This document shows, piece after piece, positions 20,461 through 53,434 of a DNA stretch of 64,000 bases. Source of the stretch: an uncultured Desulfobacteraceae bacterium (lineage in GTDB: Bacteria; Desulfobacterota; Desulfobacteria; Desulfobacterales; UBA5852); NCBI GenBank assembly GCA_913060875.1, contig CAJXSL010000008.1, positions 186,001 to 250,000 of the forward strand. The letters run 5' to 3'. The stretch's first letter is position 1. Every line of letters starts with the position of its first letter. The notes under the pieces were generated by a model. The model searched no databases. It saw only the letters and a program-made list of their open reading frames with translations, and was not told where the DNA came from. The position numbers and the translations under genes were made by a program.

Positions 20461-20484
20461 TACGAAAGCCCTGGAGTAACCGGA

Positions 20485-25742: not shown

Positions 25743-26632
25743 TCGGCGGGGTTTACTATCGCGGTCTTGCCTGGCTCTCCCGTTGGTGCGGGCTGTGGCT
25801 GTTTCGCACCGGGGCCTGGTTTGTGGCCGCCGGCTTTTACTTGTTTTTCCCCGGACGGGTGGCCGCCAGCGCGGCCTTTTACCGCGTCCTGATGCCGGGC
25901 CGCCGCCGCTGGTTCTACTGGCGATGCGCCTGGCGCCAGTTTCACCGGTTTACCGGTGTATTCGTGGATCGGTTTCTCCTGCAGACCGGGCAGACCTTCG
26001 ATTATACCTCGGCAGGTGTTGAAAACCTGGACCGGGCCCTGGACCAGGGCATGGGCGGCATTATCCTCATGTCCCACGTGGGCAACTGGGAGATTGCCGC
26101 CCATCTGCTGAAGCAGCACCGCGACCATTTGCCCCTGATGCTTTACATGGGGGCCAAACAGAAAGAACAGATCGAGAAACTGCAGAAGCAGAACCTGGCG
26201 GAATCGGGGGTGCGCATTATCGTGGCGGGGGCGGATACGGGCACCCCTTTTGATACCGTCGAGGGAATCCAGCATCTCAAAAAGGGGGGGCTGGTGTCCC
26301 TGTCCGGGGACATGGCCTGGCATGCGGCCCAGCGCACGGTTCCGGTCAATTTTTTGGGGCGGCGTGTGGACCTGCCGGCGGGCCCCCATGTGTTCGCCAT
26401 GGTGGCGGGGGTGCCCCTGTTTTATTTTTTTTCGCACCGCACCGGCCCCCGGAGCTACCATTTCAGCGTCAGCGAACCCTGTTATGTCCGGCCGGCGTCG
26501 CGCTCCGCGCGCCAGGCGGCCATTCAGGCCAGCGCCCAGGCCTATGCCGATCGCCTGGCCGAATATGTGCACCGGCATCCGTTTGAGTGGTTTCATTTCC
26601 GTTCGCTTTTCACGGATGGCGATGATGCTTGA
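25739..26632 (+). CDS. LpxL/HtrB-like lysophospholipid acyltransferase
   Basis: 297-residue acyltransferase of the lipid A late-acyltransferase family, with the HX4E motif in SHVGNWE (His113/Glu118). It has an N-terminal membrane anchor near residues 20-40. Start overlaps the MMPL stop as ATGA. ApeD-type homologues are a regular part of APE clusters and are thought to attach the polyene to a lipid anchor; its acceptor here is unknown. About 110 AT-rich bases follow before the next ACP. Confidence 0.85.
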   Translation: MIGGVYYRGLAWLSRWCGLWLFRTGAWFVAAGFYLFFPGRVAASAAFYRVLMPGRRRWFYWRCAWRQFHRFTGVFVDRFLLQTGQTFDYTSAGVENLDRALDQGMGGIILMSHVGNWEIAAHLLKQHRDHLPLMLYMGAKQKEQIEKLQKQNLAESGVRIIVAGADTGTPFDTVEGIQHLKKGGLVSLSGDMAWHAAQRTVPVNFLGRRVDLPAGPHVFAMVAGVPLFYFFSHRTGPRSYHFSVSEPCYVRPASRSARQAAIQASAQAYADRLAEYVHRHPFEWFHFRSLFTDGDDA

Positions 26633-28254: not shown

Positions 28255-29034
28255 ATGACCGGGAAGGCGACACGTCAGGAGAACGCATGGCGCCGAGGGT
28301 TGGCGCGGACAGGGAGCGATGCGGCCGTGACCCTGGTTTTATGGCTCTATTTCACCCTGGGCTTCGTTCTGTTTTTTCTGCCTCGCTACATCTGGGCGCT
28401 GCGCTCCGGCCAGGCGCGTGAAGCCGCCTTCCAGCGCCTCAACAGCCAGTTCTACCGGGGATTTTTCGCCCTGCTGCACTTTCTCGCCTCCCGCGTGCAG
28501 ATTAAAGTGGACGCGGGCGTCCGCCGGCTCAAGGGGGCGGTCGTGGTCAGCAACCATGTGTCCTATCTGGATCCGCTGCTTTTCATCGCCCAGTTTTCCC
28601 GTCAGAAGACCATCGTCAAAAGCCTGTTTTTCCGTGTCCCGATCTTCGGCTGGTTCATTACCCAGGCGGGCTACATGCCGGCCTCGGCCTCGGGGCCGGC
28701 CGGTGAGCTGATGATCCGCAGCATGGCCACCGTGGCGGATTTTTTCAAAGCCGGCGGCGTTTTTTTTGTCTTTCCCGAAGGTACCCGTCATGTCCGCGGC
28801 CGGGATGTGGACCTGCACGAGGGCGCCTTCAAGATCGCCAGCCGCTACAAAGCCCCCCTGGCCGTGGTCCGCATCCGCCATACGGAAAAAGTCTTCCCGC
28901 CGGGCCGCTTCCTCTTCCGCACCGGGTCGCCCGTCACCATCACGGTCGACCTGGTGGATGTGTTCAATGGGGAGCAGGGGGTGGCTTCCCTGAAACCGGG
29001 GGAGTTGAAGGCCAAGGTGAAGGCCATCCTGTAA
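28255..29034 (+). CDS. PlsC-like 1-acylglycerol-3-phosphate acyltransferase
   Basis: 259-residue acyltransferase with the HX4D motif NHVSYLD (His101/Asp106) and the substrate motif FPEGTR (173-178). An N-terminal membrane segment lies at about 23-45. Starts 4 bases after the KS stop. It could acylate a glycerol-phosphate or a cluster-specific alcohol. Last gene of the first cluster half before the accessory island. Confidence 0.87.
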   Translation: MTGKATRQENAWRRGLARTGSDAAVTLVLWLYFTLGFVLFFLPRYIWALRSGQAREAAFQRLNSQFYRGFFALLHFLASRVQIKVDAGVRRLKGAVVVSNHVSYLDPLLFIAQFSRQKTIVKSLFFRVPIFGWFITQAGYMPASASGPAGELMIRSMATVADFFKAGGVFFVFPEGTRHVRGRDVDLHEGAFKIASRYKAPLAVVRIRHTEKVFPPGRFLFRTGSPVTITVDLVDVFNGEQGVASLKPGELKAKVKAIL

Positions 29035-37969: not shown

Positions 37970-39229
37970 TCAAATCTTCCGACCAAACGCTTGCCGGGCC
38001 AGCTTGCGGTTTCGGGGGCGGTAGGTGCCGTCGGCTTGTTCCCGGCGCATGACCTGCTCCATCAGCCGGAACATCTTAAAGCGCTGGGGCTCGTCGTGAT
38101 AGAAGGTGTTCCAGGCGTAGTCCAGCAGCTCCTGCAGCTTATCCGGCGTCATGTGGCGGGGCTGGTAGACCACCTGGTCGGCGGTGTACTTGTCCCAGTC
38201 GTAGGTCAGAATCCGTTTCTGTTCGTGCAGTTCCCGGTAGGCCCGGGTTTGGGGAAAGGGCGTCAGGATCGTGAATTCGGCCAGGTCGAGATCGATTTCC
38301 AGAAGAAAATCGATGAGGCGTTTGATGCTGTCTTCGGTGTGGCTGTCGAGGCCCAGCAGGATGGTGCCCTCCACGCTGATGCCGTGGTCATGGTAGCGCT
38401 TGATCCGCTCGCGGATGAGGTCCGAACAATCGAAGACCGCCTGGTAGACATACCAGGCCCCGGCCTGGGCGGCCAGGTCCAGCACCTCGGGTTTATCTTC
38501 GATGGGGTGGCTGCACCATTTCTTTTTGAGGGGGATCATTTCCCGGAAGAGATCCATTTCCCACTGGGTGTCCTGGGCCAGGGAGTTGTCCACGATAAAC
38601 ATGCGGTTGTTGTCGATGGCGGCCATCTCGGCAATGGTCTTCTCGATGGGGCGCGGCCGGAAATGCCGTCCGCCCAGAAAGGCCACGCAGCAGGGATAGC
38701 AGTTGAAGCGGCAGCCCCGGGAGGCGTGGACCAGGTCCACCATCTGGATGCCTTTGTAGTTGTAGAGGTCGCGGTCCAGGATATCCCGGCGGGCGGTGCC
38801 CACCCATTCGATGGGCGGGCGCTGGTCAAGGTAGTCGTAAACCGGCTTGAGCCGATCGTTGCGCCAGTCGGCAATGACCTCTTCCATGCGGCCCTCGGCC
38901 TCCCCCAGGAAGACGCTGTCGGCATGCTTTTGGGTTTCGTCGGCATGCAGCATGGTGGCGATGCCGCCGCATATGACCTTGATACCCCGTGCCCGGTAAG
39001 CCTCGGCGATTTCCCAGCCCCGTTTGATCTGAATCGTGAGCATCATGGAAATTCCCACCATGTCCACGGGATTGTCGAAGTCGATGTCCTGAAGGTTTTC
39101 GTCGACGAAATCCACGTCGATATCATCGGGCAGGCTGGCGGCGAATACCACGGGGCCGTGGGGCGGCAGGTGGAACTCGGTCTGCCGGTGCAGTTTGGCC
39201 CAGCGGGGATAGATAATGCGGAACTTCAT
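37970..39229 (-). CDS. B12-binding radical SAM protein
   Basis: 419-residue enzyme: N-terminal cobalamin-binding-type Rossmann domain (residues 1-140, with VGISMMLTIQIKRG and VICGGI), then the radical SAM core with CRFNCYPC (Cys173/177/180). Such enzymes methylate, ring-close or rearrange unactivated carbons. ATG 39229 is spaced about 10 bases from GGAAGGG; ATG 39238 is too close. It is the last gene of the leftward unit with DUF3261, LolA, FabG and dehydratase, so its substrate may be the polyene or resorcinol; inferred. Confidence 0.82.
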   Translation of the reverse strand: MKFRIIYPRWAKLHRQTEFHLPPHGPVVFAASLPDDIDVDFVDENLQDIDFDNPVDMVGISMMLTIQIKRGWEIAEAYRARGIKVICGGIATMLHADETQKHADSVFLGEAEGRMEEVIADWRNDRLKPVYDYLDQRPPIEWVGTARRDILDRDLYNYKGIQMVDLVHASRGCRFNCYPCCVAFLGGRHFRPRPIEKTIAEMAAIDNNRMFIVDNSLAQDTQWEMDLFREMIPLKKKWCSHPIEDKPEVLDLAAQAGAWYVYQAVFDCSDLIRERIKRYHDHGISVEGTILLGLDSHTEDSIKRLIDFLLEIDLDLAEFTILTPFPQTRAYRELHEQKRILTYDWDKYTADQVVYQPRHMTPDKLQELLDYAWNTFYHDEPQRFKMFRLMEQVMRREQADGTYRPRNRKLARQAFGRKI

Positions 39230-39349
39230 TTGGGGCATTCCCTTCCTTATATCAGCGGTGCCGAAGCAGTCACATCGTTGGATCCAGGGCTTCACAGGAT
39301 CAAACCGGTGCTTTCGGGGTGATCCTGTAGCCGTAGCAGAACCGGCAAC

Positions 39350-40033
39350 TTAATACGGTTTCGTCGACTTGTCCACCTCCGGGCGGGCTTCGACCAGGTC
39401 CAGGTCGAGACGGTAATCGGCCGGGTGGAAGGCCTCCAGGTGAATGCGGCAGGGGACGGCCTCCTGATCGGCAAGGCCATCGGGGTGGCAGCGGGTTATC
39501 GTCACGCGGCGGGTCAAGCGATGGCGGCGATCGTAGTGCCGGATGCCGACGCGGCCGTACGGCTGGTGCACGACATCCACGTAGCCGTCGGCCCGTGCAT
39601 ACCGGCACCCCCGGGCGCCGGACGGCAAAGTGCCGGAAAGCAGGGGAGGGCCCTCCGGCGCAAAAAACAGCAGCCGGATGTCGGCCATCATGCCTTCGGC
39701 CAGGGCCGGGCGGTCAAAGGGCGGCAGGGCCCGGCGCACGGTCAGGGTGCCGTCGTCGTGGGCTTCGAACAGCCGCAGCCCTTCGATGGTCAGCAGGGCG
39801 CATTCCACGGCGTTTTTTTGGGGCGCCAGGGCCACCACACCCATCATGACCCCCTCGCGCCGACCGGGAAAGGCTGTTTTGATGGTGTGCACCATGCGCC
39901 AGGGCTGGCGGGGGAAAACGGCTGCGCAGTTTTTTTCAAGGTCGTCCGGCGGCTCCATGGGGATCATCAATGGCAGGCTGTAGCAGGCGGCCAGCAGGAC
40001 GGGCAGCAGCGTGACGAACAGCAGGCGTCTCAT
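39350..40033 (-). CDS. DUF3261-like outer-membrane lipoprotein
   Basis: 227-residue predicted lipoprotein: signal peptide with lipobox LLAAC (Cys17), then a beta-rich domain of the DUF3261 type seen in aryl polyene clusters next to the LolA-like gene. Its start overlaps the LolA-like stop by 4 bases. Probably an outer-membrane acceptor for the exported lipid-like product. Confidence 0.72.
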   Translation of the reverse strand: MRRLLFVTLLPVLLAACYSLPLMIPMEPPDDLEKNCAAVFPRQPWRMVHTIKTAFPGRREGVMMGVVALAPQKNAVECALLTIEGLRLFEAHDDGTLTVRRALPPFDRPALAEGMMADIRLLFFAPEGPPLLSGTLPSGARGCRYARADGYVDVVHQPYGRVGIRHYDRRHRLTRRVTITRCHPDGLADQEAVPCRIHLEAFHPADYRLDLDLVEARPEVDKSTKPY

Positions 40034-40692
40034 GATTGGTGCCGGAACATGGCCGGATCGATGGGGCGATTGACCTGCACGCCGGTAAAGATCAGGCGGG
40101 TAAAATTGTTTTCGTCTTCGTAGACGGTGACCGAATCGATGACGCCGGGGGTTTCCGCCAGTTGAAGATCAATTTTTTGGATGACGGTGGCCAGGGCTTC
40201 CTTGCGGGGGGTCAGAACGATGCGCCCGTCGGGTTCCAGACGGGCGTCGAAATCGGGGTTTTCATCAAATCGACCCTTCATCCAGCGGCCGATTTCCTGC
40301 ATGACGAAAGACATGGCCGGTAAAGCCGCGGAGGCGTCTTCGGTCCAGTTTGCGCCGGTTTTAACAAAGCGCTGGACCCGCCCCTCATCCATCACCAGGA
40401 TGCTGGGAAGGGGGGCCTGGTATTCCCAGCGCAGCCGATCCGGCGCGGCAAAGATCAATATGCCATTGGACGTCAAGGGCTTGGCCAGGATCTGCAAGTG
40501 TTTTTCCTGGGTAAAGGCAGCCTGCACCGATTGGATATCCCCGGCGGCGGAGCGGATGCTCTCCCAGGAGGAAGACCAGGCGGCCGTCAGCAGGCATACC
40601 ATTGCCAGGACGGAAAGCCTTGCCGCGATGGCCAGGTTGTGACGGGTTGTCCGCCCCCGGTCGGCCGACTTGTCATGCCGGAAAGCGGTCAT
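40030..40692 (-). CDS. LolA-like outer-membrane lipoprotein carrier
   Basis: 220-residue periplasmic carrier: membrane/signal segment at about residues 24-40, then a LolA fold (VQAAFTQEKHLQILAKPLTSNG, APDRLRWEY, ILVMDEGRV). ATG 40692 lies one base after the FabG stop; the longer frame would overlap fabG. In APE clusters such proteins work with MMPL pumps and DUF3261 lipoproteins to carry the product across the periplasm; the pump here is at 22662. Confidence 0.85.
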   Translation of the reverse strand: MTAFRHDKSADRGRTTRHNLAIAARLSVLAMVCLLTAAWSSSWESIRSAAGDIQSVQAAFTQEKHLQILAKPLTSNGILIFAAPDRLRWEYQAPLPSILVMDEGRVQRFVKTGANWTEDASAALPAMSFVMQEIGRWMKGRFDENPDFDARLEPDGRIVLTPRKEALATVIQKIDLQLAETPGVIDSVTVYEDENNFTRLIFTGVQVNRPIDPAMFRHQS

Positions 40693-40693
40693 C

Positions 40694-41431
40694 TCAGCAC
40701 ATGCCGCCGTTGACGCCGATGACCTGGCCCGTGACATAGGAGGCTTCCTCCGAGCACAGGAAACGCACCACCCCGCTGACCTCCTCGGGGCGTCCCACCC
40801 GTGCCATGGGAATGGCATGCTTGATCATTTCCACGGGCAGGTCTTTGGTCATCTCCGTGTCGATCAGCCCCGGGGCCACCACGTTGACCCGGATGCCGAG
40901 CCGCCCCACTTCGGCGGCCAGGGCCTTGCTGGCCCCGATAAGGCCGGCCTTGGCGGCCGAATAGTTCACCTGGCCCCGGTTGCCCATGACCCCGGAGACC
41001 GATGAAATGGTGACGATGGAGCCCTTCTTCTTGCGGATCATTTTTTTGATGACCGGCTTGGTGACATTGTAAAACCCCTTCAGGGCCACATCGATGACCG
41101 AATCCCATTTGCTGGCCTTCATCATCAGAAACAGATCGTCGGCCGCAATGCCGGCATTGTTGACCAGCACGTCGATGGTGTCCAGGCGCCCGGTGATTTC
41201 TTTCATGGCGGCGCCGGCCTGCTCCGGGTCGGCCACGTCGAAGGCCACGGTTTCGATGGAGCCCCCGGCCGCCTCGATTTCGGCCGTGGTGGCCTCGGCC
41301 GAAGCCGTGTTGGCGTGATAATTGGCGACGATATGATAGCCGGCCTTGGCCAGCGTAACCGAAATGGCCCGGCCAATACCCCGGGTGCCGCCCGTTACGA
41401 GCGCCACAGGTTTCGGATTGTCGGTTGTCAT
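40694..41431 (-). CDS. 3-oxoacyl-ACP reductase (FabG/ApeQ-like)
   Basis: 245-residue SDR ketoreductase with TGGTRGIG (residues 13-20), NNAG (91-94), the SS catalytic region at 143-144 and YSAAK (Tyr157/Lys161), ending in GVNGGMC. AAGGAG precedes the ATG at 41431. It would reduce the beta-keto group after each condensation. Between the dehydratase and LolA-like genes. Confidence 0.92.
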   Translation of the reverse strand: MTTDNPKPVALVTGGTRGIGRAISVTLAKAGYHIVANYHANTASAEATTAEIEAAGGSIETVAFDVADPEQAGAAMKEITGRLDTIDVLVNNAGIAADDLFLMMKASKWDSVIDVALKGFYNVTKPVIKKMIRKKKGSIVTISSVSGVMGNRGQVNYSAAKAGLIGASKALAAEVGRLGIRVNVVAPGLIDTEMTKDLPVEMIKHAIPMARVGRPEEVSGVVRFLCSEEASYVTGQVIGVNGGMC

Positions 41432-41487
41432 GGGTGCTTTCTCCTTTCGAGCTTTGCCATATTGCGATGACCCGGTTCTAATCACCA

Positions 41488-41928
41488 TCAACTAGGGTCG
41501 GTTTCCGTCCAGAATACCTGCAGCACGATGTGGGCTGCCGGCGTGCGGTCCACCAGGACTTCCGTTTCGATTTCATGAAACGTTTGATAGCTGAAGACCG
41601 GGCGGGCGTGGGTTCGAATCGTTTTGCCGATCCGGAAACGCTGTTGATGGAAAGCGGCATTCTTGATGCCCACCAGCCATCCTTTGCCATGGAGCGTTGC
41701 GCCCCTGTGTTGGCGTTCCTGATACCCCACCAGGATTCCGGCCGTCTGGGCACTGATTTCAACGGCCACGAGGCTGCTGACGTGCCCGGCCTGCCGCAAT
41801 GGCCAGCGGCGCGTGGGCGTCGCTTCCGTAACGGCCCCCCGACGATTTACCGCAACGAGCCGGTCGATCAATCGCATCCCCTCGCGGTGGGGGATCAATT
41901 GGCCGAGATCGAATGCCGTATACGACAC
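41488..41928 (-). CDS. FabZ/ApeP-like 3-hydroxyacyl-ACP dehydratase
   Basis: 146-residue hotdog protein; LIPHREGMRLID at residues 11-22 holds the dehydratase-type histidine (His14). Size and context fit the ApeP subfamily of APE clusters. A GTG start at 41928 follows GAAAGG; the frame extends further upstream without similarity. First gene of the leftward unit, divergent from the ACP at 42244. The glutamate of classical FabZ was not identified with certainty. Confidence 0.75.
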   Translation of the reverse strand: MSYTAFDLGQLIPHREGMRLIDRLVAVNRRGAVTEATPTRRWPLRQAGHVSSLVAVEISAQTAGILVGYQERQHRGATLHGKGWLVGIKNAAFHQQRFRIGKTIRTHARPVFSYQTFHEIETEVLVDRTPAAHIVLQVFWTETDPS

Positions 41929-42085
41929 TAAAGCGCCTTTCCAAGAGGACCCAAAGCGTGCGGTCTTTAGGGTGATTCCGGCTGACAGGGTTTTTCTACA
42001 CCAGGTGCGCCGCACCTGTAAAGGGTGGAGGCCACTGGCCGTCCGGCGGTTGAATCCCCAAAAAGCGGTTGAACTGCCCCGGCGG

Positions 42086-42243: not shown

Positions 42244-42504
42244 ATGGACAATTTTATCGAAGAACTCAAAGTAAAGATTATCGAAGCACTGGCCCTGGAG
42301 GATGTGACACCGGACGATATCGACCCTGACGCCCAGTTGGTGGGCGGTGATCTCGGCATCGATTCCATCGACGTGCTGGAGCTCGTCATGTTGGTGGAAA
42401 AAGAATACGGCGTGGTTATCGACAGCAAGGAATTGGGGGCCCAGGTTTTCGCCAGCCTCAGCGCGCTCGGCGAATATATCCAGAAAACACGCAAGGAGGG
42501 GTGA
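42244..42504 (+). CDS. Acyl carrier protein
   Basis: 86-residue ACP with the carrier serine in LGIDSIDVLE (Ser41). It is the first gene of the rightward operon that continues with the KS-CLF fusion 4 bases after its stop, so it is the likely dedicated carrier of that synthase. Confidence 0.9.
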   Translation: MDNFIEELKVKIIEALALEDVTPDDIDPDAQLVGGDLGIDSIDVLELVMLVEKEYGVVIDSKELGAQVFASLSALGEYIQKTRKEG

Positions 42505-42508: not shown

Positions 42509-44689
42509 TTGACTGACGGGCGGCGCGTATTCATTACCGGCATGGGCATCATCAGCGCCATGGGGCGCGGGGTTGACGAAACCCTGGCGGCCCTGGAGCG
42601 GGCCGATACCGGTATCCGTCCCCTGACACTTTTTGCATGTCCTTTTGAAGAACCGTTGCCCGTCGGCGAGGTGTGCGGGGTAGCGAACCAGCCCGATAAA
42701 CCGCCCCGGACCCATCAGCTGGCGCTGGCGGCCGCCCGGGAAGCCTTGATTGAGGCCGACCGCGCGCCGGATATGGTCATCCTGGGGGGCACCACCGGCG
42801 GCATGTTCGCCACCGAGGAATACATGAAGCAGGGCCACCGACGGCCCCCTTATTCGCAGCACCATGCCGTGTCTTCGGTGGCCGAAATGGTGGCCCGGGA
42901 ATGCGGCTGCCGGGGCGCGGCCATGACGGTGACCACGGCCTGCTCTTCGGGTGCGGTGGGGATCAAACTGGCGCTGGAAATTTTGCGCCGGGGCGCGGCC
43001 CGCTCCATCCTGGTGGGCGGCGCGGATGGGCTTTGCCGCCTGACCTATTATGGGTTCAATGCATTGCAGATTGTCGACCGCGCCGGGGCGCGTCCCATGG
43101 ACCGCGACCGCCGGGGCATGACGGTGTCCGAGGGGGCGGCGATGCTCCTTTTGACGGCGGCGGACCAGCCTCCGGATAACGCTTGGGCCGAGGTTGGCGG
43201 GGGCGGGTTGACCTGTGATGCCTATCACCCGGCAGCCCCGCACCCCGAGGGACGCGGGGCACGGGATGCCATGCTGGCCGCCCTGGCGGACGCCGGGTTG
43301 TCAGCGGACGATGTCGATTACGTCAACCTGCATGGCACCGGCACGGTGGAAAACGATCTGTCGGAGGCCAAGGCCATAAAGTCTGTTTTTAGCGACCGCC
43401 TTCCCCAGCTGTCCTCCGTCAAAGGAAGCTTCGGGCACTCCCTGGCCGCTTCCGGTGCCATCGAGGCCGTCATTGCCGCCCTCTGCATCCAGAAGGGTTT
43501 TGTGCCATCGAACGTGGGGTGGCGGCACCAGGACGAGGCCATCGGATTCAGCCCCCTGACCGAACCCCGCCGCCAGCCGGTCCGGACCGTGTTGTCCAAT
43601 TCTTTTGGATTCGGCGGCAACAATGCGGCGCTGGTATTCATTGCGCCCACGAAGAGCGAGCCGGGGACCAGGGCCCGTTTGACGAGAAGCCTGGCGGTGC
43701 GCGCCTGCTGCTGTATGACCGGGGCCGGCTGGACCGGGGACACGCTGGAGCGCTTTTTCAAGGGGTTGTCCTGCCAGGGCACGCTGTCTTCCGACCGCCT
43801 TTCCGAAGGATTGCCGCCCCGCGCGGTGCGGCGAATGAAGCGTTTGGCCCGCATGACCCTGGGGCTTGCCGTTCGTACGGTGGGCCGGGCCGACCTGAAG
43901 GAGCCTATAGGCGATGTCTATTTCGGTACGGCGTTGGGCGCCCTGTCCGAGACCCATGATTTTTTGGACAAGCTTTACGCCTCCAACGAATTCTATACCA
44001 GCCCCATCGATTTTGTGGGATCGGTGCACAATGCCCCTGCCGGCAAGGTGGCCATGAAGGAGAAGGTCCAGGGGGCCAACGTGACCATGAGCGGGGGCGA
44101 TGCGTCTTTTGAGCAGGCCCTGACCGCGGCCCATTACCTTTCCGCTGAAGGCCGGCAGTCCATACTGGTCGGCGGAGCGGATGAAATGCACCCGATTTTC
44201 TCGGAGGTTTTCGACAAGTCCGTTCCCATGGGTGCGAGCGCGGCCGACGGGGGCGGCATGCTTTTGCTTGAAACGGCGGGCAGCGGAACCGCGGTTACCT
44301 TGTCGCCGGGCTACATGACCACCACTGAAGACGTGATGGCCTCGCTGCAAGCGGCAGTGGCCTGGCATGGCGGGCGCGAGGCCGTCAATGACCGGATCGG
44401 TGCCCTTATGGTGGGGATTCCGGCGGCCTGGCGGGAAAGGGTGACGCCGCACCTGGACGATTTTCTCCACTGGCTCGAATTCAAGGGTCCCGTGATCGAC
44501 TACCGTCGCTATTTCGGAGAATTTGCCTCGGTATCCGCCGTGGCTGCCGTGGCCGCCGTGGCCCTGATGGAAAACGGTGCCGTCCCCGGACCGCTGGCGG
44601 AGGGGGAAGACTGCCCCCTGGCCGGCCGCGGCATCCTGCTCATCGGGTTGGGTGTCACCACGTCGACAATGCTGGTCGAAACGTCATGA
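42509..44689 (+). CDS. Fused ketosynthase-chain-length factor
   Basis: 726-residue protein. Residues 1-395 are a FabF-type KS with Cys145 (TACSSGAVG), His275 (LHGTGT) and His310 (GSFGHSLA). Residues 396-726 are a second, shorter KS-like domain in which the nucleophile position reads MSGGDASFEQ, without cysteine, as in chain-length factors such as ApeC. In E. coli-type APE systems KS (ApeO) and CLF (ApeC) are separate partners. TTG start 8 bases after AAGGAGGGG; the frame runs upstream inside the ACP gene and is not real there. Confidence 0.87.
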   Translation: MTDGRRVFITGMGIISAMGRGVDETLAALERADTGIRPLTLFACPFEEPLPVGEVCGVANQPDKPPRTHQLALAAAREALIEADRAPDMVILGGTTGGMFATEEYMKQGHRRPPYSQHHAVSSVAEMVARECGCRGAAMTVTTACSSGAVGIKLALEILRRGAARSILVGGADGLCRLTYYGFNALQIVDRAGARPMDRDRRGMTVSEGAAMLLLTAADQPPDNAWAEVGGGGLTCDAYHPAAPHPEGRGARDAMLAALADAGLSADDVDYVNLHGTGTVENDLSEAKAIKSVFSDRLPQLSSVKGSFGHSLAASGAIEAVIAALCIQKGFVPSNVGWRHQDEAIGFSPLTEPRRQPVRTVLSNSFGFGGNNAALVFIAPTKSEPGTRARLTRSLAVRACCCMTGAGWTGDTLERFFKGLSCQGTLSSDRLSEGLPPRAVRRMKRLARMTLGLAVRTVGRADLKEPIGDVYFGTALGALSETHDFLDKLYASNEFYTSPIDFVGSVHNAPAGKVAMKEKVQGANVTMSGGDASFEQALTAAHYLSAEGRQSILVGGADEMHPIFSEVFDKSVPMGASAADGGGMLLLETAGSGTAVTLSPGYMTTTEDVMASLQAAVAWHGGREAVNDRIGALMVGIPAAWRERVTPHLDDFLHWLEFKGPVIDYRRYFGEFASVSAVAAVAAVALMENGAVPGPLAEGEDCPLAGRGILLIGLGVTTSTMLVETS

Positions 44690-44789: not shown

Positions 44790-46136
44790 GTGAAGGTCCT
44801 GCTGGTATCCGCCAATCGGCTCAATGCCCCTTATGCCGTTTATCCGCTGGGCCTGGACTATGTGGCCCGGGCGATTGAAGACCGGCACGAGGTCCGGGTC
44901 ATCGATCTCAACACGGCGAACACCACCGCCCTGGTGGCGGCCTTGAACGAAACCCCTCCGGATATCGTCGGGATCTCCATCCGCAATATCGACAATACGG
45001 ATACGCTCGACCCCCAAGGGTTCACCGGCCAATACCGTGACCTGGCCGCCCTGATCCGTACCCATGTCACGGCGCCCATCGTTCTGGGGGGAAGCGGCTT
45101 TACCATTTTCCCCGCCGAACTCATGGCGCTGCTGGAGGCGGATTACGGCATCATCGGCGAGGGGGAGCGCCTGGCGGCCCTGTTGGACGCCATCGCGAAT
45201 GGGGGGGATCCCGCCAATATCCCCGGCGTGATCCTGCCGGGAGGGGCGGCCGTCATCCCCCGGCCGCTCAGCGATCATCTGAACCGCAAGGTCAACGGCA
45301 CGCCCGCTGTGACAGGTTATTACGTCCGCCGGGGCGGCATGCTCAACCTGCAGACGAAACGGGGATGCCCGTTTCGCTGCATCTACTGCACCTATCCCCA
45401 CATCGAGGGGCGCGCCATGCGTCCGATCGCGCCGGCTGAGGTGGCGACCACCGCTATGGAACTTCAGGAAGCCGGCGCGCGCTACCTGTTTATCACCGAT
45501 TCGGCTTTCAATGCGGACTACGGGCATAGCCTGGCCGTGGCCGAGGCCTTTCTGGCGGCCGGTTTGAGTATTCCCTGGGGGGCTTTTTTCGCCCCTACGC
45601 ACCCTCCTGCCGGCTATTATAAACGATTGGCCGAAGCCGGCCTTTCACATGTCGAATTCGGCACGGAAGCCATGTCGAACCGGGTGCTCCAAAGCTACTG
45701 CAAACCGTTTCAGGTGGACGATGTCCGGCAGGCCCACGCGGCCGCCCAGGCCGCAGGGGTGCATGTCGCCCATTACATGCTGCTGGGAGGGCCGGGCGAA
45801 ACCACCGAAACCCTTGCCGAAACACTTTCCAATATTGACAAATTGCGTCACACCGTAGTATTTTTTTTCTGCGGTATGCGGATTTATCCGCATACCGCTC
45901 TTTATCGTCTGGCGGTCGAAAACAACATGATTGCGCCGGAGCAGGATTTGCTTGAACCTGTTTTTTACCGGTCGGACGCCATTGCTGAAGACCGGATTTT
46001 GCAGATGGTTCAGGACCATGCCGCGGGCCGGGTCAATTGGGTTTTCGGGGCCGGCGGCGAAGAAACCGAGAAGATCCTGACCCGTTTGCATAAACGGGGG
46101 TTTGTGGGACCCTTGTGGGAATTTTTGATTCGCTGA
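44790..46136 (+). CDS. B12-binding radical SAM protein
   Basis: 448-residue enzyme with an N-terminal B12-binding domain (LDYVARAIEDRHEVRVIDL, VLGGSGF, GEGE) and the radical SAM motif CPFRCIYC (Cys193/197/200). It resembles proteins annotated as lipid-biosynthesis B12-binding/radical SAM enzymes. GTG start with a weak GGTCGGGTGG site. It sits inside the ACP/KS/DH operon, strong context for acting on an ACP-bound chain; the reaction is unknown. Confidence 0.82.
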   Translation: MKVLLVSANRLNAPYAVYPLGLDYVARAIEDRHEVRVIDLNTANTTALVAALNETPPDIVGISIRNIDNTDTLDPQGFTGQYRDLAALIRTHVTAPIVLGGSGFTIFPAELMALLEADYGIIGEGERLAALLDAIANGGDPANIPGVILPGGAAVIPRPLSDHLNRKVNGTPAVTGYYVRRGGMLNLQTKRGCPFRCIYCTYPHIEGRAMRPIAPAEVATTAMELQEAGARYLFITDSAFNADYGHSLAVAEAFLAAGLSIPWGAFFAPTHPPAGYYKRLAEAGLSHVEFGTEAMSNRVLQSYCKPFQVDDVRQAHAAAQAAGVHVAHYMLLGGPGETTETLAETLSNIDKLRHTVVFFFCGMRIYPHTALYRLAVENNMIAPEQDLLEPVFYRSDAIAEDRILQMVQDHAAGRVNWVFGAGGEETEKILTRLHKRGFVGPLWEFLIR

Positions 46137-46168
46137 GCGACAGAAGGATTTGCCGGGACGAACATTCA

Positions 46169-46528
46169 ATGACAGGCACTGATCCATCGGACGGCACCAT
46201 GCGCCGGGAAATTGCGATTCCGGAGGATTCCCTCTGGTTCCAGGGCCATTTCCCGGGCGATCCGTTGCTGCCGGGGATTGCCCAACTCCACCTGGTGGTG
46301 GAAACAATCCAATCCGCCCTGGGCGAAAAGCGCTGCTTGACAGCCCTCAAACGGGTGCGCTTTAAGCGGGTCATCCGTCCGGAGGAGACCATGGCCATTG
46401 CCGTGGAGCCCCTCCCGAACGCCCCCGACACCTTCCGTTTCCAATTGACGGTGGCGGGCGAGAACGCCTGCAGCGGGTTGATGACTACCGGCCCATCGGA
46501 GGCCGTAGAGGATCAGATTAAGCCATAA
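46169..46528 (+). CDS. FabZ/ApeI-like 3-hydroxyacyl-ACP dehydratase
   Basis: 119-residue hotdog dehydratase with the FabA/FabZ motif GHFPGDPLLPG (His27). Second dehydratase of the cluster; APE pathways likewise use two (ApeI and ApeP). ATG 46169 chosen; ATG 46199 is also possible, and the frame extends upstream into the radical SAM gene. Followed 42 bases later by an ACP. Confidence 0.82.
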   Translation: MTGTDPSDGTMRREIAIPEDSLWFQGHFPGDPLLPGIAQLHLVVETIQSALGEKRCLTALKRVRFKRVIRPEETMAIAVEPLPNAPDTFRFQLTVAGENACSGLMTTGPSEAVEDQIKP

Positions 46529-46570
46529 CACTTGCCGGATTGCGATAGCAGTAGAAGGGAGACACCATCA

Positions 46571-46837
46571 ATGGCTGTTGAAACCAAAGAAACCGATATC
46601 ATCCTGAAGGTTGCCGAAGTGCTGATCGAGGAGTTGAAGCTGGAAGACGTTACCCCGACGACCTTCGAACCGGATATCGACCTGGTGGATGAAATCGGTA
46701 TCGATAGCATGGACCTGGCCACGGTGGCCCTGGTCCTGCAGGACCACTACGGGATTCGTTTCGATGAAGACGATTACCCGACCCTGACCACGGTGCGCAA
46801 AATTGCGCTTTACATTGCTGCACGCCTGGAATCCTGA
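46571..46837 (+). CDS. Acyl carrier protein
   Basis: 88-residue ACP, carrier serine in IGIDSMDLAT (Ser46), GAAGGGAG ribosome site. Fourth ACP of the window, with helices clearly different from the other three, so different enzymes probably recognise it. It directly precedes the tandem radical SAM genes. Confidence 0.9.
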   Translation: MAVETKETDIILKVAEVLIEELKLEDVTPTTFEPDIDLVDEIGIDSMDLATVALVLQDHYGIRFDEDDYPTLTTVRKIALYIAARLES

Positions 46838-46858: not shown

Positions 46859-47953
46859 GTGACTGTACCGAATTTAAAGGATGTTCGCGAGCCTTGCCGG
46901 AAGCCGCCGATCCAGTGGAAGTTTGCCGACATTTTGGCGGACCCGTCGATCCGTGCCCGTTGGGAAAAGGTGCGCCGCTATTTTTTCCTGCGCGAATCCA
47001 CCTACGACATGACCAGCCGTTGCAATATCCGCTGCGAAGGATGTTACTATTTTGAAGGGCAGAAACAATATGCCGAGGAAAACCGCGCCCCGGAAGCCTG
47101 GCGTGAATTGATGCGGGCGGAAAAGGACCGCGGGGTGACATTCGTCGTGCTGGCCGGCGCGGAACCGGCCCTGGTGCCGGACCTGTGCCAGGTCTGCTTC
47201 GAAGAAATGCCCCTGGGCACCATTGCCACCAACGGGCTGATCCGCATCCCGGAGGCGGTCGGCTATCGCATCCATATTTCCGTCTGGGGCAACGACGCCA
47301 CGAGCAAGCGCGTTCGTGGGGCCGCCGATATGCTGGAACGGCAGTTGGACAATTACCAGGACGATCCCCGCGCGGTGTTCGTCTATACCTTCACGCCGGC
47401 CAATATCGATGAGGCCTACGACGTTACCGCCATCCTGGCCAAACGGAATGCCAAGGTGACCTTCAACATGTTTTCCGCGCCGGTGGGATATGACGGCCCG
47501 CTGAAGCATACACCGGCATCCCTGGGCAGGGTCCGGCAGACCATGGTCGATCTGCTGGCCGCCGACCCGGAGCATGTTTTGTTTTCCAACTACAACGCCG
47601 TGGTGCACACCCATCGCCTGGGGCTGCACGACCTGTTCAGTTGCCCGTATCCCCGCCGCAATCCAACCCGGAATGTCGGCCTGGGCCGGTCCTTCCGGCA
47701 ATACCGCACCGATCTTTCCTGGGATCGCAATGCGGCCTGCTGTGTGCCGGATACGGACTGCGCCGATTGCCGCCACTATGCCGCCGGCAGCGCCATCGTG
47801 ACCTCCAAGCTCTTCCGGCATGCCATCGACCCGGAAACCTTCCGGGCCTGGCTGGACTATGTGGATACCTATCTGGCGGTCTGGGTCAAAGGGTATGAAA
47901 AAGAACCGAATCTTTACACCAGTGTTACCGAACCCCCGTGTTGCCCCCCCTGA
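46859..47953 (+). CDS. Radical SAM protein (tandem copy 1)
   Basis: 364-residue radical SAM enzyme with CNIRCEGC (Cys55/59/62), a GxEP-like segment AGAEPALVPD, and a C-terminal cysteine-rich part (AACCVPDTDCADC) suggesting an auxiliary cluster. GTG start 8 bases after GAGG. It shares layout and many stretches with the next gene (RRYFFLRESTYDMTSRCN against ISKLNIRSSIYDVTNRCN), so the pair arose by duplication. Its place after an ACP and before two KS genes suggests a tailoring step on the growing chain or the starter. Confidence 0.8.
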   Translation: MTVPNLKDVREPCRKPPIQWKFADILADPSIRARWEKVRRYFFLRESTYDMTSRCNIRCEGCYYFEGQKQYAEENRAPEAWRELMRAEKDRGVTFVVLAGAEPALVPDLCQVCFEEMPLGTIATNGLIRIPEAVGYRIHISVWGNDATSKRVRGAADMLERQLDNYQDDPRAVFVYTFTPANIDEAYDVTAILAKRNAKVTFNMFSAPVGYDGPLKHTPASLGRVRQTMVDLLAADPEHVLFSNYNAVVHTHRLGLHDLFSCPYPRRNPTRNVGLGRSFRQYRTDLSWDRNAACCVPDTDCADCRHYAAGSAIVTSKLFRHAIDPETFRAWLDYVDTYLAVWVKGYEKEPNLYTSVTEPPCCPP

Positions 47954-48034: not shown

Positions 48035-49033
48035 ATGAAAACGGTAAGTTCGCTGCTGGATGACGAATGGTATGCGCGTTACAAGCGCATTTCCAAGCTG
48101 AATATCCGCAGTTCGATCTATGATGTGACCAACCGCTGCAACCTGCGCTGCAAGGGCTGTTTCTTTTTTTCCTCGGGTGAAGACAAGGCGGCCGAGGAGG
48201 AAATGCGCCAGGATCGCTGGGAAGCGTTTATCGACAACGAAAAGGAACGCGGGGTCAACCTGGCCATCCTGATCGGTGGTGAGCCGACGCTTTATCTGGA
48301 CCGCGTGGAAGCCTTCTACCGGCGGCTGCCGACCTTTTGCGCGACCAACGGCTTGATCAAGGTGCCGCGGGACCGGTTCCCGGACCTGATGGTGGGCATC
48401 TCCCTGTGGGGGGATGAAAACGACGAGAAAACCCTGCGCGGCAAAGATACCTTTGCCGTATCCAGCCGACATTATGCCGGCGATCCCAACACCTACTATC
48501 TCTACACCATCACGCCCAAACAGATCGGCAAGATCGAGAAAATTATATGTAAAATCAAGGATGTGGGTGTCAAAGTGCACATGCAGCTGCTTTCCAACGA
48601 CGAGGGCGTGGACGGCTTTTCCTGGCAACCGGAAGAGTTGAACGACGTGCGCTTCGAGATGGACGACATGCTGGACCGCTATCCCGACACGGTGATTTCC
48701 TGCAAATATTACCATGAGGTGATCACCACCGGTAAAATGCTCGGGCGGCCTTTTGGCTGGAATGAATGCCCCTCGGTGACCGAACCCCTGGACACCCGGA
48801 GCCCGCAGCCCAAACGGCTGATCCATTTCATCCGCTGGGCCTCGGATCTCAAGACCATGCACCGCTGCTGCACGTCCGAGACCCGCGACTGTCGGACCTG
48901 CAAGGACGGTGCGGCCCACATGAGCTGGGTCATGGTCAACAAACGGGCTCACATCCGTACCACCAAGGATTTGCAGAACTGGATCGAAGTGTACGAAATG
49001 TTTGCCAAACTGTATCAGTTTATTCCCTGGTAG
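48035..49033 (+). CDS. Radical SAM protein (tandem copy 2)
   Basis: 332-residue radical SAM enzyme with CNLRCKGC (Cys35/39/42), GGEP near residue 80, and a C-terminal HRCCTSETRDCRTC cluster motif. GAAGGAG precedes the ATG. Paralogue of the preceding gene but shorter at the N-terminus. The retention of both with their cysteine motifs intact suggests a two-step modification or a heterodimer. Confidence 0.8.
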   Translation: MKTVSSLLDDEWYARYKRISKLNIRSSIYDVTNRCNLRCKGCFFFSSGEDKAAEEEMRQDRWEAFIDNEKERGVNLAILIGGEPTLYLDRVEAFYRRLPTFCATNGLIKVPRDRFPDLMVGISLWGDENDEKTLRGKDTFAVSSRHYAGDPNTYYLYTITPKQIGKIEKIICKIKDVGVKVHMQLLSNDEGVDGFSWQPEELNDVRFEMDDMLDRYPDTVISCKYYHEVITTGKMLGRPFGWNECPSVTEPLDTRSPQPKRLIHFIRWASDLKTMHRCCTSETRDCRTCKDGAAHMSWVMVNKRAHIRTTKDLQNWIEVYEMFAKLYQFIPW

Positions 49034-49182: not shown

Positions 49183-50433
49183 ATGACATCTGCAAAAACA
49201 GTGATCGTGGGCTGGGATATGGTTTCCCCCCTGGGAACGGATCTGGAGGCCCAATGGACCCGGGCCGCGGCCGGCGACAGCGGCATCGGGCTCCTGACGC
49301 GCTTTGCCCTGCCGGATGGTTTTCCCGTCGCCATCGCGGGGCAGGTCCCGGACTGGGATGCCACCCCTTATCCCTTTCTGTCCCCCCGCCAGATGGCCCA
49401 CTGGACATCGCCCATTTTCCCCCATGCCATGCTGGTGGTGCATCGTGCCCTGGTGCGGGCCGGCATCGAGATCACGCCGGAACTGGCCCCGCGCGTGGCC
49501 GTCACCTTCAGCAGCGCCGTAGGGGGGCTCGATGCGGTACTGCGGGCCGACCGTCAGATGGTGGCGGACAACAAGATGCCCCATCCTTTTACCAATCCCA
49601 ATTCCTGCATCAACATGGTGGGGGGGAAAGTCTCCATCCTGACCGGCGCCACCGGACCGATAAGCGCCACCATTACCGCCTGTGCCACGGGGGTGACCTC
49701 CCTGATCACCGGCCATCTGCTCCTCGAGCAGGGCCGGGCCGACATGGCCATCTGCGGGGCGGTGGATTTCTGTCTGGTGGAGCCCATCGTGGCCGGTTTT
49801 GCCACCATGAACGGCGCCTATCAGCCCAAACCGGGCCACCCCCCCCTGCCTCCCGGGGAGGCCAGCCGTCCCTTTTCCCTCGACCGGCGCGGTTTCGTTG
49901 TCTCCGAAGGCGCCGGCTGCCTGATCCTGGCCACCGATGAATTTGCCAGACGGCATGGTTTGCCCCGGGATATGGCCCTGGCCGGCTGGAGTATGACCTC
50001 CGACGCCCGGCATTTTGTGGCGCCGAACCCGGAGACCATCACCCGCTGCATTGCCGAGGCGGTGGCCGATGCCGGCCTGCAGCCGCAAGATGTGGACGCC
50101 GTCAATGCCCATGGGACCTCCACCCGCATCGGCGATACGGTGGAAGCCCGGGCGCTGGACGATGTCTTCGGGCAACACCTGCCGCCGGTGTCGGCCAACA
50201 AATCCATGACCGGCCACGCCATGGGGGCCTCCAGCGCCATCGAAACCATTCTGGCTATCGAGGGTATGCAGCGCGGCCGTCTCCTGCCCACCATCAACCA
50301 CGCACCGGATCCTGATTTGTCCCTGGATGTGGTGGCCGAGGGAACCCGGTCCCTGGACCAGGAATTCGTGCTTAAAAACGCCTTCGGGTTCGGGGGCTGC
50401 AATTCCTGTGTGGTCCTGCATCGGCGGGGTTAA
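49183..50433 (+). CDS. Beta-ketoacyl-ACP synthase
   Basis: 416-residue FabF-like enzyme with the full triad: Cys167 (TACATGVTS), His310 (NAHGTST), His345 (MTGHAMGASSAIE). Starts 149 bases after the radical SAM pair. Closest in outline to the next KS at 50841; the two may act at different chain lengths. Confidence 0.9.
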   Translation: MTSAKTVIVGWDMVSPLGTDLEAQWTRAAAGDSGIGLLTRFALPDGFPVAIAGQVPDWDATPYPFLSPRQMAHWTSPIFPHAMLVVHRALVRAGIEITPELAPRVAVTFSSAVGGLDAVLRADRQMVADNKMPHPFTNPNSCINMVGGKVSILTGATGPISATITACATGVTSLITGHLLLEQGRADMAICGAVDFCLVEPIVAGFATMNGAYQPKPGHPPLPPGEASRPFSLDRRGFVVSEGAGCLILATDEFARRHGLPRDMALAGWSMTSDARHFVAPNPETITRCIAEAVADAGLQPQDVDAVNAHGTSTRIGDTVEARALDDVFGQHLPPVSANKSMTGHAMGASSAIETILAIEGMQRGRLLPTINHAPDPDLSLDVVAEGTRSLDQEFVLKNAFGFGGCNSCVVLHRRG

Positions 50434-50840
50434 CCCCCATCCCCCTGAGACCCGACCGTGGCTTTCGTTACAGCGACCTTGCCCGAATATATCATGAAAT
50501 TTTCTGCGAAATAAATTTTATGTAAATATATCGGTGGTATTAACACTGTTCGAGGCGCGATTTGCCGGTGACGATTTGGTACCTGCGCCGATTTCCGGGA
50601 ACGCAGAAAAAATTCACCCTGCGGGCGCGTCCGAGATGCCCATTGGCTGCGTTATCAGGGGTTTGCGGTAACAGGTGTACAGCGGCGCCCCTGATGCCTT
50701 GCCCATGAACATCTCAAACGCGTGAAATATCCGGGCTTATCGTGCCCACCGGTGCTGAAAAGCGACGGCCCTCCCCTTGATTTCCCGTCTTTTCGGATGT
50801 ATTTGTGCATATTTGTCTTGAAGGGGCGGATTATCGCGTT

Positions 50841-52106
50841 ATGAAAGCACCTGCCAATCGAAACGTCTATGTCGTCGGATACGGGGCCGCCACTCCGCTG
50901 GGGCGGACTTTTCCCGAAACATGGCAGCGTGCGGCCCGGGGGGAATCCGGACTGCGACGCCTGACCCGCTGCCAGGTGGATACGCGCAACAATGTCGTCG
51001 GTGAAATTCCCGATTGGGATCCCGAGACGCTGGACTTTGTCGATAAAAAAGAAGCCTACAACTGGAATGCCGACTTTGTCCTGCTGACCATGGCGGTCTG
51101 CCGGGAAGCCCTGGCGCATGCCGGCATCGAAATGGACGATACCATCGGACCGCGCACGGCCTGTCTGGTGGGGTCGGCCCTGAACGGGTCGGACGCCTAC
51201 CGGACCGCCATGGACAACTACCTCAATCGGGGCCCGCTCAAGATCAGCCCCTACCTGCTGCCCAACCTGTGCGCGAACCTGCCGGCGGGCAAGGCCGGCA
51301 TGCTGGAGGGGTTCACCGGACCGATTTTCTCACCCCAGGGCGCCTGTGCTTCGGGCAACCACGCCATCGGTATCGGTGCCCGCATGATTCGTGACGGGGA
51401 TTGCGACGTGGCCCTGGTGGGTGGGGTGGACACCTGCCTGATTCCTGAAATCATCCATGGATTCGCCAACATGCTGGCCACCATCAGCATCGGCCCCAAG
51501 GACCGGGCTTATGCCGATCCGGGCCAGGCCTCCCGGCCTTTCAGCCGCGACCGCAAGGGCATGGTGCTTTCTGAAGGCGGCGGGGTCCTGGTGCTGGCCG
51601 CCGATGACGTAGTCGCCGCCCATGGGCTCAAGGCCCGGGCCGAGGTTTTGGGGATCGGGTGGACGTCGGATGCCTTCCATTTTACCCAGCCGAATGCCGC
51701 TACCATCATCCGTGCCATCCATGGGGCCATCGACGATGCCGGTCTTGCGCCGGGCGATATCCAGTACGTCAATGCCCACGGCACCTCGACACCCAAGGGC
51801 GACCTGACGGAAATCGAGTGTTTGCGCAGCGTTTTCGGGCCGCACCTCGATCGGATGCCGGTCTCCTCCAACAAATCGCAGATCGGTCATTCCCTGGGGG
51901 CTGCGGCGGCCATCGAGGCGGCCCTGGCCATCGAGGGCATGCAGCAGGGCATCATCCTGCCCACGATCAATCACCTTCCCGATCCCAAATTTGACGATAT
52001 CGACGTGGTGCCCGATCGGGCCCGGCATCAGGCCCACGAGATCGTGCTGTCCAATGCCTTCGGGTTCGGCGGCACCAACTGCTGCGTCGTACTGCGAGGT
52101 TTTTAG
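50841..52106 (+). CDS. Beta-ketoacyl-ACP synthase
   Basis: 421-residue FabF-like enzyme with Cys169 (QGACASGNHA), His313 (NAHGTST) and His350 (IGHSLGAAAAIE). ATG 50841 chosen; the frame opens 12 codons earlier without similarity. The 407-base gap before it (50434-50840) includes an AT-rich patch at 50490-50560 that could hold a promoter, with no gene. The thioesterase gene starts on the base after its stop. Confidence 0.9.
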   Translation: MKAPANRNVYVVGYGAATPLGRTFPETWQRAARGESGLRRLTRCQVDTRNNVVGEIPDWDPETLDFVDKKEAYNWNADFVLLTMAVCREALAHAGIEMDDTIGPRTACLVGSALNGSDAYRTAMDNYLNRGPLKISPYLLPNLCANLPAGKAGMLEGFTGPIFSPQGACASGNHAIGIGARMIRDGDCDVALVGGVDTCLIPEIIHGFANMLATISIGPKDRAYADPGQASRPFSRDRKGMVLSEGGGVLVLAADDVVAAHGLKARAEVLGIGWTSDAFHFTQPNAATIIRAIHGAIDDAGLAPGDIQYVNAHGTSTPKGDLTEIECLRSVFGPHLDRMPVSSNKSQIGHSLGAAAAIEAALAIEGMQQGIILPTINHLPDPKFDDIDVVPDRARHQAHEIVLSNAFGFGGTNCCVVLRGF

Positions 52107-52586
52107 ATGAAGCCCAAACCGTTTCTGCCGGAAGTTTTGAGCGGCAACCCTCATTATGTGCGCGACACCTCCGGCGGCCAGGTCTGGCACCGCTGTGAAA
52201 CCCGTGTTCTTTATGCCGACACCGACCGTTCCCAGGTCGTCTACCACGGCAATTACCTGCGCTATTTCGAGTTCGGGCGGGCCTCCCTGATGCGGGATGC
52301 CGGCTACCCCTACAAGGAGGTCGAAGAAAACGGATATGTCTACCCGATTATCGAAATCGGCCTGAAATATGTCAGCCCCTTGCACTATGACGACCCCATC
52401 TGGGTCAACACCCGCCCCGCCGACCTGGAGCGCGTGCGCCTGAGCTTCGACTATGTCATTACCCACCGGGAGACGGGGGCGCTGATCTGCACCGGCGAAA
52501 CCCGTCACTGTGCCACCAACACCGCCGGCGTGCCGGTGGGCATCGACGACCAGACCCTGCATCTATGGAAGACGTTTCCCCGATAG
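52107..52586 (+). CDS. Acyl-CoA/ACP thioesterase (4HBT hotdog)
   Basis: 159-residue hotdog enzyme with the signature YADTDRSQVVYHGNYLRYFEFGR (Asp in the ADTD turn is the expected catalytic residue). Zero-base gap from the KS stop and a 22-base overlap with the following dehydratase show tight coupling. Second YbgC/ApeK-type thioesterase of the cluster. Confidence 0.86.
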   Translation: MKPKPFLPEVLSGNPHYVRDTSGGQVWHRCETRVLYADTDRSQVVYHGNYLRYFEFGRASLMRDAGYPYKEVEENGYVYPIIEIGLKYVSPLHYDDPIWVNTRPADLERVRLSFDYVITHRETGALICTGETRHCATNTAGVPVGIDDQTLHLWKTFPR

Positions 52587-53434
52587 GCGCACCTGTTCGC
52601 CAAGCCGTGACCATCCCCAATGCGCCCGCGCTGCAGGATCACCGCTTCCTGGGGCAGGCCGTGCTGCCGGCGGTCTTTGCGCTGGAGCACCTGGCCCGGG
52701 CGGTGCACCGCGTTTTCCCCGATGTGCTCCTGACGGACTTGTCGGACGCCCGGTTTGATAAATTCCTGGACCTGCCGGCCCTGGATACGCTGCAGGTGGA
52801 GGCACTGGCCGAATTGAAGCCTTCCCCCGATGGCGGTATCGAGGCGTCGCTGCTGACCCGCCACGTGGCGCCTAAAAGCGGCATCACCCGCATGAAAACC
52901 CATGTCCGGGCCTGCTTCGGCCCGTTGGTGGATGCCGAACTCTTCCTGCCGGCACCGCCGCCCTGGCCGGAAGATCCGGCGGAAGTCTTCCCCATACCGG
53001 CGGAACGGCTTTACGCCGAGATGGTGCCGTTTGGCCGCAGCTTCCACAATATCGTGTCCCCGGTGTATCTCCGGCCGGAAATTGCCCGGGCCGCCGTGGC
53101 CGCCGGGCCGGCGAAGACAGATGGCCCTGACCTCATCCTGGGGTCGCCTTTCCCGCTGGATGCCGCCTTTCACCTGGCCTGCGCCTGGGCCCAGCGCTAT
53201 GCTGGCGTTGTTGCCTTTCCCACGGGGATGGCCCAACGGGTGATCCGACGTCCTGCGTTTCCAGGGCAGACGTATGAAGCCCATGTCTGCTGCCGCGAGC
53301 AGGCCAAAGATCGGTTGGTGTTCGATCTCTGGCTCCATGATCGCGAAGACACGCTTTGTGAGTATGTCAGGGGGCTTGCCATGCGCGATGTCAGCGGCGG
53401 GCGATTGCAGCCGCCCGACTGGGTCAGGAATTGA
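52565..53434 (+). CDS. Stand-alone PKS-type dehydratase (double hotdog)
   Basis: 289-residue protein that looks like the DH domain of modular polyketide synthases: first hotdog with the catalytic HX3GX4P motif HRFLGQAVLP (His26-Pro35), second hotdog with the DXXXH motif DAAFH (Asp199/His203). As a separate protein it would dehydrate a 3-hydroxyacyl-ACP, or help aromatise or cyclise. It adds a third dehydratase to the two FabZ-like ones. No other PKS domain is attached. Confidence 0.72.
   Translation: MEDVSPIGAPVRQAVTIPNAPALQDHRFLGQAVLPAVFALEHLARAVHRVFPDVLLTDLSDARFDKFLDLPALDTLQVEALAELKPSPDGGIEASLLTRHVAPKSGITRMKTHVRACFGPLVDAELFLPAPPPWPEDPAEVFPIPAERLYAEMVPFGRSFHNIVSPVYLRPEIARAAVAAGPAKTDGPDLILGSPFPLDAAFHLACAWAQRYAGVVAFPTGMAQRVIRRPAFPGQTYEAHVCCREQAKDRLVFDLWLHDREDTLCEYVRGLAMRDVSGGRLQPPDWVRN

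Follow-up and report, generated by a model that had tools for sequence, protein, structure and literature searches.

A free-standing type II ketosynthase/chain-length factor fusion conserved in sulfate reducers and spirochaetes

The closest described relatives of the enzyme reported here pair a ketosynthase (KS) with a chain-length factor (CLF) in different ways. In aryl polyene (APE) biosynthesis, ApeO and ApeC (6QSP) are separate subunits, and in ApeC most of the second thiolase domain is gone (PMC8358021). Iga11-Iga12 of ishigamide (6kxd), a type II polyene KS-CLF, likewise consists of two separate proteins, from another type of cluster and another group of organisms. In PfaC, part of a type I PUFA megasynthase, the KS precedes the CLF in one chain, and intramolecular pairing has been proposed (PMC13311796). 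The preliminary description of our locus contrasted it with the separate KS and CLF subunits of described APE systems. This is true of ApeO-ApeC, but a one-chain KS-CLF has a precedent in PfaC (6riw), and because the PfaC didomain is so built, the KS-CLF fusion is known in principle. What is new is a family of free-standing type II KS-CLF fusions. Unlike PfaC, the protein described here consists of KS and CLF domains only and stands beside separate acyl carrier proteins (ACPs), a ketoreductase (KR), and dehydratases.

The fusion gene lies in a 64-kb stretch of DNA, the whole of which is called the window (Table 1). As had been claimed, KS and CLF share one polypeptide: the gene is uninterrupted, starts with TTG, encodes 726 aa with zero internal stops, and has its KS domains followed by the CLF half. 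The same frame is open from a GTG at 42347, 54 codons earlier and within the ACP gene; we prefer 42509 as the start, which lies 4 nt past the stop codon of that gene. In the KS half, PF00109 (ketoacyl-synt N) and PF02801 (C) span residues 68 to 336, and the sequence matches in the PDB are FabF-type enzymes. The CLF half has a match to PF13723 (Ketoacyl-synt_2, a KS-like N-terminal family) at residues 435 to 610 with 57.9 bits (cut-off, 25), and its PDB sequence matches are the CLF of ishigamide (6kxd_B; E = 1e-9, the best) and that of the APE system (6qsp_B; E = 9e-6). The source genome encodes no PF13723 domain outside the fusion, and the same is true of seven other genomes. Between the halves, the conserved residues N372 and G399 are spaced by 25 to 34 residues across the fusions, and this stretch is far less conserved than its flanks (mean majority fraction 0.24 for the linker versus 0.67 and 0.60 for the halves).

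Table 1. Features of the KS-CLF fusion gene and of its surroundings in the window
Feature	Coordinates	Strand	Basis
StlD/DarB-family ketosynthase	11398..12540	+	PRK06816, 532 bits vs cut-off 450
DarH-type acyltransferase	18164..19252	+	474 bits vs cut-off 300
ABC exporter, ATPase and permease	19200..21813	+	
GT2 glycosyltransferase	21844..22665	+	
MMPL exporter	22662..25742	+	
LpxL-type acyltransferase	25739..26632	+	
Ketosynthase KS0	27015..28250	+	
PlsC-type acyltransferase	28255..29034	+	
B12-binding radical-SAM protein, conserved in cluster	37970..39295	-	
Conserved protein, apparent lipoprotein, function not assigned	39350..40033	-	
LolA-type carrier	40030..40818	-	LolA2_flexi-like, under that cut-off
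FabG-type ketoreductase	40694..41491	-	FlxB-like, under FlxB cut-off
FabZ-like hot-dog dehydratase	41488..42015	-	weak match
Acyl carrier protein ACP1, directly upstream of fusion	42244..42504	+	PRK09184 family
KS-CLF fusion gene, 726 aa	42509..44689	+	open frame, Pfam, AlphaFold2
KS half, residues 1-378, with C145, H275, K305, H310	42509..43642	+	Pfam, PDB sequence match, homologue alignment
Linker, about residues 379-394, variable in length and sequence; pLDDT falls to ~70	43643..43690	+	
CLF half, residues 395-726, full thiolase fold; Asp531 for Cys, Glu671 for His; R441/R442/R445 invariant	43691..44686	+	
B12-binding radical-SAM protein, rSAM_ladder_B12	44790..46136	+	TIGR04072, 408 bits vs cut-off 360
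ApeI-like dehydratase	46115..46528	+	
Acyl carrier protein ACP2	46532..46837	+	
Radical-SAM protein a	46859..47953	+	
Radical-SAM protein b, 80-91% identity in relatives	48035..49033	+	
FabF-like ketosynthase KS2	49183..50433	+	
FabF-like ketosynthase KS3	50805..52106	+	
YbgC/FadM-type thioesterase	52107..52586	+	
PKS-type double hot-dog dehydratase (PS-DH)	52565..53434	+	
AMP-binding acyl ligase, 462 aa	59596..60984	-	whole-genome search; 83 bits vs cut-off 29.9
Further B12-binding radical-SAM protein, kept in fused and separate-pair clusters	60988..62421	-	

The neighbors of the fusion are conserved as well, among them KR, dehydratase, LolA, and radical-SAM genes. A conserved block on the minus strand encodes a B12 radical-SAM protein, the lipoprotein-like protein, LolA, FabG, and a hot-dog dehydratase; its counterpart on the plus strand runs from the ACP and the KS-CLF through the TIGR04072 protein, the ApeI-like dehydratase, a second ACP, two radical-SAM proteins, and two FabF-like KSs to the thioesterase and the PS-DH. 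Of 66 loci, 59 have an ACP gene immediately in front of the fusion, the two genes sharing 4 nt in 39; the next gene after the fusion encodes a homologue of the TIGR04072 protein in 46 of 71. At least 13 loci have a relative of the AMP ligase (39 to 45% identity) in the vicinity of the fusion. A DUF2062 protein is encoded downstream on the minus strand, and in other loci its relatives adjoin KS-CLF genes of the fused or the separate kind. The window cluster encodes at least five radical-SAM enzymes, one of them above the TIGR04072 cut-off.

Some features of the surroundings are worth recording in their own right. Radical-SAM protein b is better conserved across the clusters than the condensing enzymes. 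About 9 kb (29035 to 37969; SDR, TetR, thioesterase, CDF transporter, flavin reductases, MarR) separate the PlsC-type gene from the B12 radical-SAM gene, and in the related locus L046 the cluster genes that flank this stretch run consecutively. The gene immediately following the AMP ligase, in the same orientation, encodes a YcaO-family protein (58238 to 59548, minus strand), and the loci retrieved contained no relative of this protein. A 601-aa Dak2/DegV protein (FakA/FakB-like; 15371 to 17176, minus strand) adjoins an ACP, and the plus-strand open reading frame at 15467 to 17251 is a shadow of its gene, despite matches in related loci. Upstream of the StlD/DarB ketosynthase, 10413 to 11336 is a DarA candidate by position, with no NCBIfam match in support of DarA.

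The cluster had been framed as an APE cluster, and this framing holds in part: the KR, an ApeI-type dehydratase, two ACPs, LolA, and MMPL are all present in the window, together with further dehydratases. The AMP ligase is a candidate for activating a starter acid. At the level of the enzyme, ApeO-ApeC also combines a KS with a PF13723-type CLF, and an Arg-Arg pair of our CLF half aligns with an RR in ApeC, where Arg30/31 are proposed ACP contacts (PMC8358021). Unlike ApeC, however, our CLF half is of full length and is fused to its KS, and radical-SAM, StlD/DarB-family, and DarH-type genes are added to the cluster. A whole-genome search with PF00221 revealed no aromatic ammonia-lyase in the 64-kb window; the two lyases of the genome are on contigs C4 and C1 only, and the one on C1 scores 280 against the FlxA cut-off of 700. 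Since an ammonia-lyase is missing from the window and the type of CLF differs, we reject assignment to the canonical APE clusters. As an analogy for the mechanism, the APE comparison is useful. There is also a partial likeness to flexirubin and dialkylresorcinol clusters, in that the models for the StlD/DarB subfamily and for DarH are passed and LolA2-like and FlxB-like proteins are encoded. On the other hand, the cut-offs of FlxB, LolA2_flexi, and the DarB-specific model (455 versus 550) are not reached, the window has no tyrosine ammonia-lyase, and radical-SAM enzymes are added.

We consider it likely that the single-chain KS-CLF carries out the condensations of chain elongation in a type II cluster for a polyene lipid, with its halves predicted to form an intramolecular pseudo-heterodimer. 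In our model, the KS half would be loaded on Cys145 and would condense malonyl units from the neighboring ACP with the aid of His275 and His310. Chain growth would be limited by the cysteine-less CLF half, whose invariant Arg patch (R441/R442) is the probable docking site of the ACP. The KR and the dehydratases of the cluster would work in each round; as the cluster yielded no enoyl reductase, the chain would be expected to keep its double bonds. The radical-SAM enzymes may then modify the chain, a dialkylresorcinol ester may be attached by DarB and DarH, and the lipid would reach the envelope by way of the acyltransferase, LolA, and MMPL proteins; the order of these steps is our proposal. The three further FabF-like KSs of the cluster may share in elongation, and DarB and DarH, 23 to 31 kb away from the fusion, may belong to a neighboring pathway. 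We infer a polyene as the product; an enoyl reductase encoded elsewhere could act on the chain, so that its conjugation may be incomplete.

An unlikely alternative is a methylene-interrupted polyunsaturated chain as made by PUFA synthases. PfaC has the closest whole-chain architecture, several different dehydratases are encoded in the cluster, and anaerobic PUFA synthesis has been proposed for related clusters (Rattray et al. 2009; PMC2649909). The lack of an enoyl reductase in the cluster argues against such a chain, as does the CLF half, which is nearest to the polyene CLF of ishigamide in sequence and structure; furthermore, the KR, LolA, and exporter genes resemble APE and flexirubin sets.

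AlphaFold2 predicted the whole chain (72 sequences) as one compact unit with a mean pLDDT of 93.8 and a pTM of 0.96. Its best match in the PDB is the PfaC KS-CLF didomain 6riw (896 columns; TM 0.81 by query length), similar in domain order and whole-chain fold, at 15% identity. The CLF half alone (pLDDT 90.1) is best matched by the ishigamide CLF 6kxf_B (E = 1e-15; TM 0.75 by query length) and is KS-like over its full length, so that the doubt whether the second half has a KS fold can be put aside. The preliminary description held that the fusion fixes a 1:1 pairing of KS and CLF. The predicted packing of the two halves into a single unit fits this. KSs are usually dimers, and a swapped architecture, in which the KS of one chain pairs with the CLF of another or two KSs pair with the CLFs outside, would go unseen in a monomer prediction. 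Nevertheless, the high pTM of the single chain and its superposition over the whole length on the PfaC didomain, with its proposed intramolecular arrangement, make a swap rather improbable, and we retain the intramolecular pair as our model.

The residues of the two halves are consistent with a KS and a CLF. The cysteine and the two histidines ascribed to the N-terminal half (Cys145, His275, and His310) were numbered correctly and, together with K305, are unchanged in 72/72 fusion homologues. The cysteine reported as missing from the C-terminal half never occupies the active-site position of the CLF: D531, which lies opposite C145 in a profile-profile alignment of the halves, is Asp in 67 and Asn in 5 of the 72 homologues. 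At the position of the second KS histidine, E671 (placed by a by-eye motif alignment of G309-H310 with G670-E671) is Glu in 59, Gln in 11, and Asp in 2. Compared with a KS-CLF pair, a KS with Cys-His-His and Lys is present, and so is a partner with the KS fold and without the active-site Cys; the two separate subunits of such a pair are replaced by a single 726-aa chain. Degenerate KS domains can be decarboxylases, and the cysteine-less half could in principle be a priming domain like KSQ instead of a length factor. KSQ domains have Gln at the cysteine position and keep their histidines, whereas our half has Asp or Asn and has exchanged the second His for Glu, Gln, or Asp, and both sequence and structure group it with CLFs. 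A priming role is therefore very unlikely, and the half is best read as a CLF.

The fused KS-CLF is a real and conserved family in sulfate reducers and spirochaetes. The full fusion, with 46 to 71% identity and zero stops, is present in 12 of 57 relatives searched. Scanning the genomes of GTDB species turned up 192 sequences related to the CLF half, and the best 80 of these 192 are all fusions, 6 of the 80 being truncated by contig ends. By record title, the carriers are Desulfobacteraceae, Desulfobulbaceae, Syntrophaceae, other Desulfobacterota, and Spirochaetes, and they include the isolates Desulfatitalea alkaliphila M08but, Desulfobacter vibrioformis DSM 8776, and Desulfopila sp. IMCC35006. 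A CLF profile run against 395 genomes of the phylum had 20 full-length matches (E < 1e-89), all in frames of 720 to 865 aa; after a gap, the remaining matches in this sample are weak (E of 6e-26 or worse) and mostly in separate frames. Among 198 genomes of Spirochaetota, 10 have a full-length match, in frames of 727 to 859 aa. Fused frames thus hold 30/30 full-length matches in the two samples. The suggestion that the fusion defines a subtype is borne out by a single clade whose members are always fused. A literature search, made largely in papers outside subscription, found no description of a KS-CLF fusion of this type. Although KS and CLF are adjacent, partly overlapping genes in related clusters and could conceivably be joined by an assembly error or a missed stop or frameshift, the probability of this is next to nil, since the frame is intact in the 12 relatives and at 80/80 loci (6 cut by contig ends), recurs in dozens of independent assemblies including those of the isolates D. 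alkaliphila and D. vibrioformis, and has a linker that is in frame and evolves like a linker; codon-position composition is equal on either side of the junction.

Separate KS-CLF pairs in TIGR04072 clusters of Desulfobacterota point to the origin of the fusion. These clusters resemble the fusion clusters in their B12 radical-SAM, GT2, LpxL-type, and ACP genes but have KS and CLF as two adjacent genes, with a 4-nt overlap in several, and their CLFs are only weakly similar (best E of ~6e-26 versus 1e-89 or better in the fused proteins). In the CLF tree the fused CLFs form one clade (100/100), sister to 13 separate CLFs, and in the KS tree the fused KSs form one clade (100/99), sister to 15 separate KS partners. 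The agreement of the two trees suggests that a pair already in existence was fused a single time, probably when neighboring genes for KS and CLF became joined. The single clade is more secure than its sister relationship, since the branches are long and the CLF bootstrap is not fully settled.

A second type of KS-CLF fusion, of 782 to 797 aa, was seen in two genomes (L136:12252-14600, plus strand, and L138:4552-6945, minus strand); it has Glu for Cys in the CLF part and falls outside the clade of the window fusion in both trees. Two other long frames were considered as further fusions: the one in G415 was rejected because the CLF frame differs from the KS frame, and the 516-aa frame in G257 seems to be an overlong reading frame next to a KS encoded separately. 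The source genome itself has a separate KS and CLF pair on contig C1 (L146:13454-19740; ~985.4 to 991.7 kb), the CLF having Glu for Cys and Glu for the second His. The pair is accompanied by genes for an acyl-CoA ligase and an aromatic ammonia-lyase, possibly aryl-starter genes, and stands beside an RND efflux pump.

With a B12 radical-SAM protein above the curated cut-off of TIGR04072, the cluster is related to the 'ladderane-type' clusters, which are suspected sources of ladderanes, a class of lipids not yet explained. Such 'ladderane' clusters outside the anammox bacteria have been reported in Desulfobacterota, with unknown function (PMC9902471), and Desulfotalea, which has a related cluster, made no ladderanes (PMC2649909). 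Among the window ORFs scanned, none had a Pfam match of the phytoene-desaturase-like kind described for the clusters of Kuenenia and Desulfotalea. In Kuenenia, earlier searches reported no polyketide-type enzyme (PMC2649909, PMC4790861). Its canonical and non-canonical FabF genes have neighboring locus numbers (Rattray et al. 2009, PMC2649909; Javidpour et al. 2016, PMC4790861), and the non-canonical FabFs have no Cys and, in two cases, Glu for histidine (PMC2649909, PMC4790861). This residue pattern is CLF-like, and Glu is also the commonest residue at that site in the fused CLF half. We tentatively propose, as a possible though doubtful reading, that in every 'ladderane-type' cluster, also in anammox bacteria, a KS-CLF, fused or as two proteins, is the unrecognized polyene synthase, that the radical-SAM enzymes act on the polyene so made, which would be the precursor of ladderanes, and that the Kuenenia FabF/FabB proteins kuste3606 (by kuste3605) and kuste2805 (by kuste2804) are CLFs. 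The anammox part of this proposal is based on published residue tables and gene lists (PMC2649909, PMC4790861).

In sum, the fusion clusters unite condensing enzymes of the polyene type with a radical-SAM family that is tied to ladderanes. A single-chain KS-CLF avoids the problem of subunit assembly that hampers the production and study of KS-CLF pairs, and it is a ready-made scaffold for polyene synthesis. If the odd FabFs of Kuenenia are CLFs, the assembly of ladderane precursors can be put to a direct test, and sulfate reducers that grow in culture would serve for this as well.
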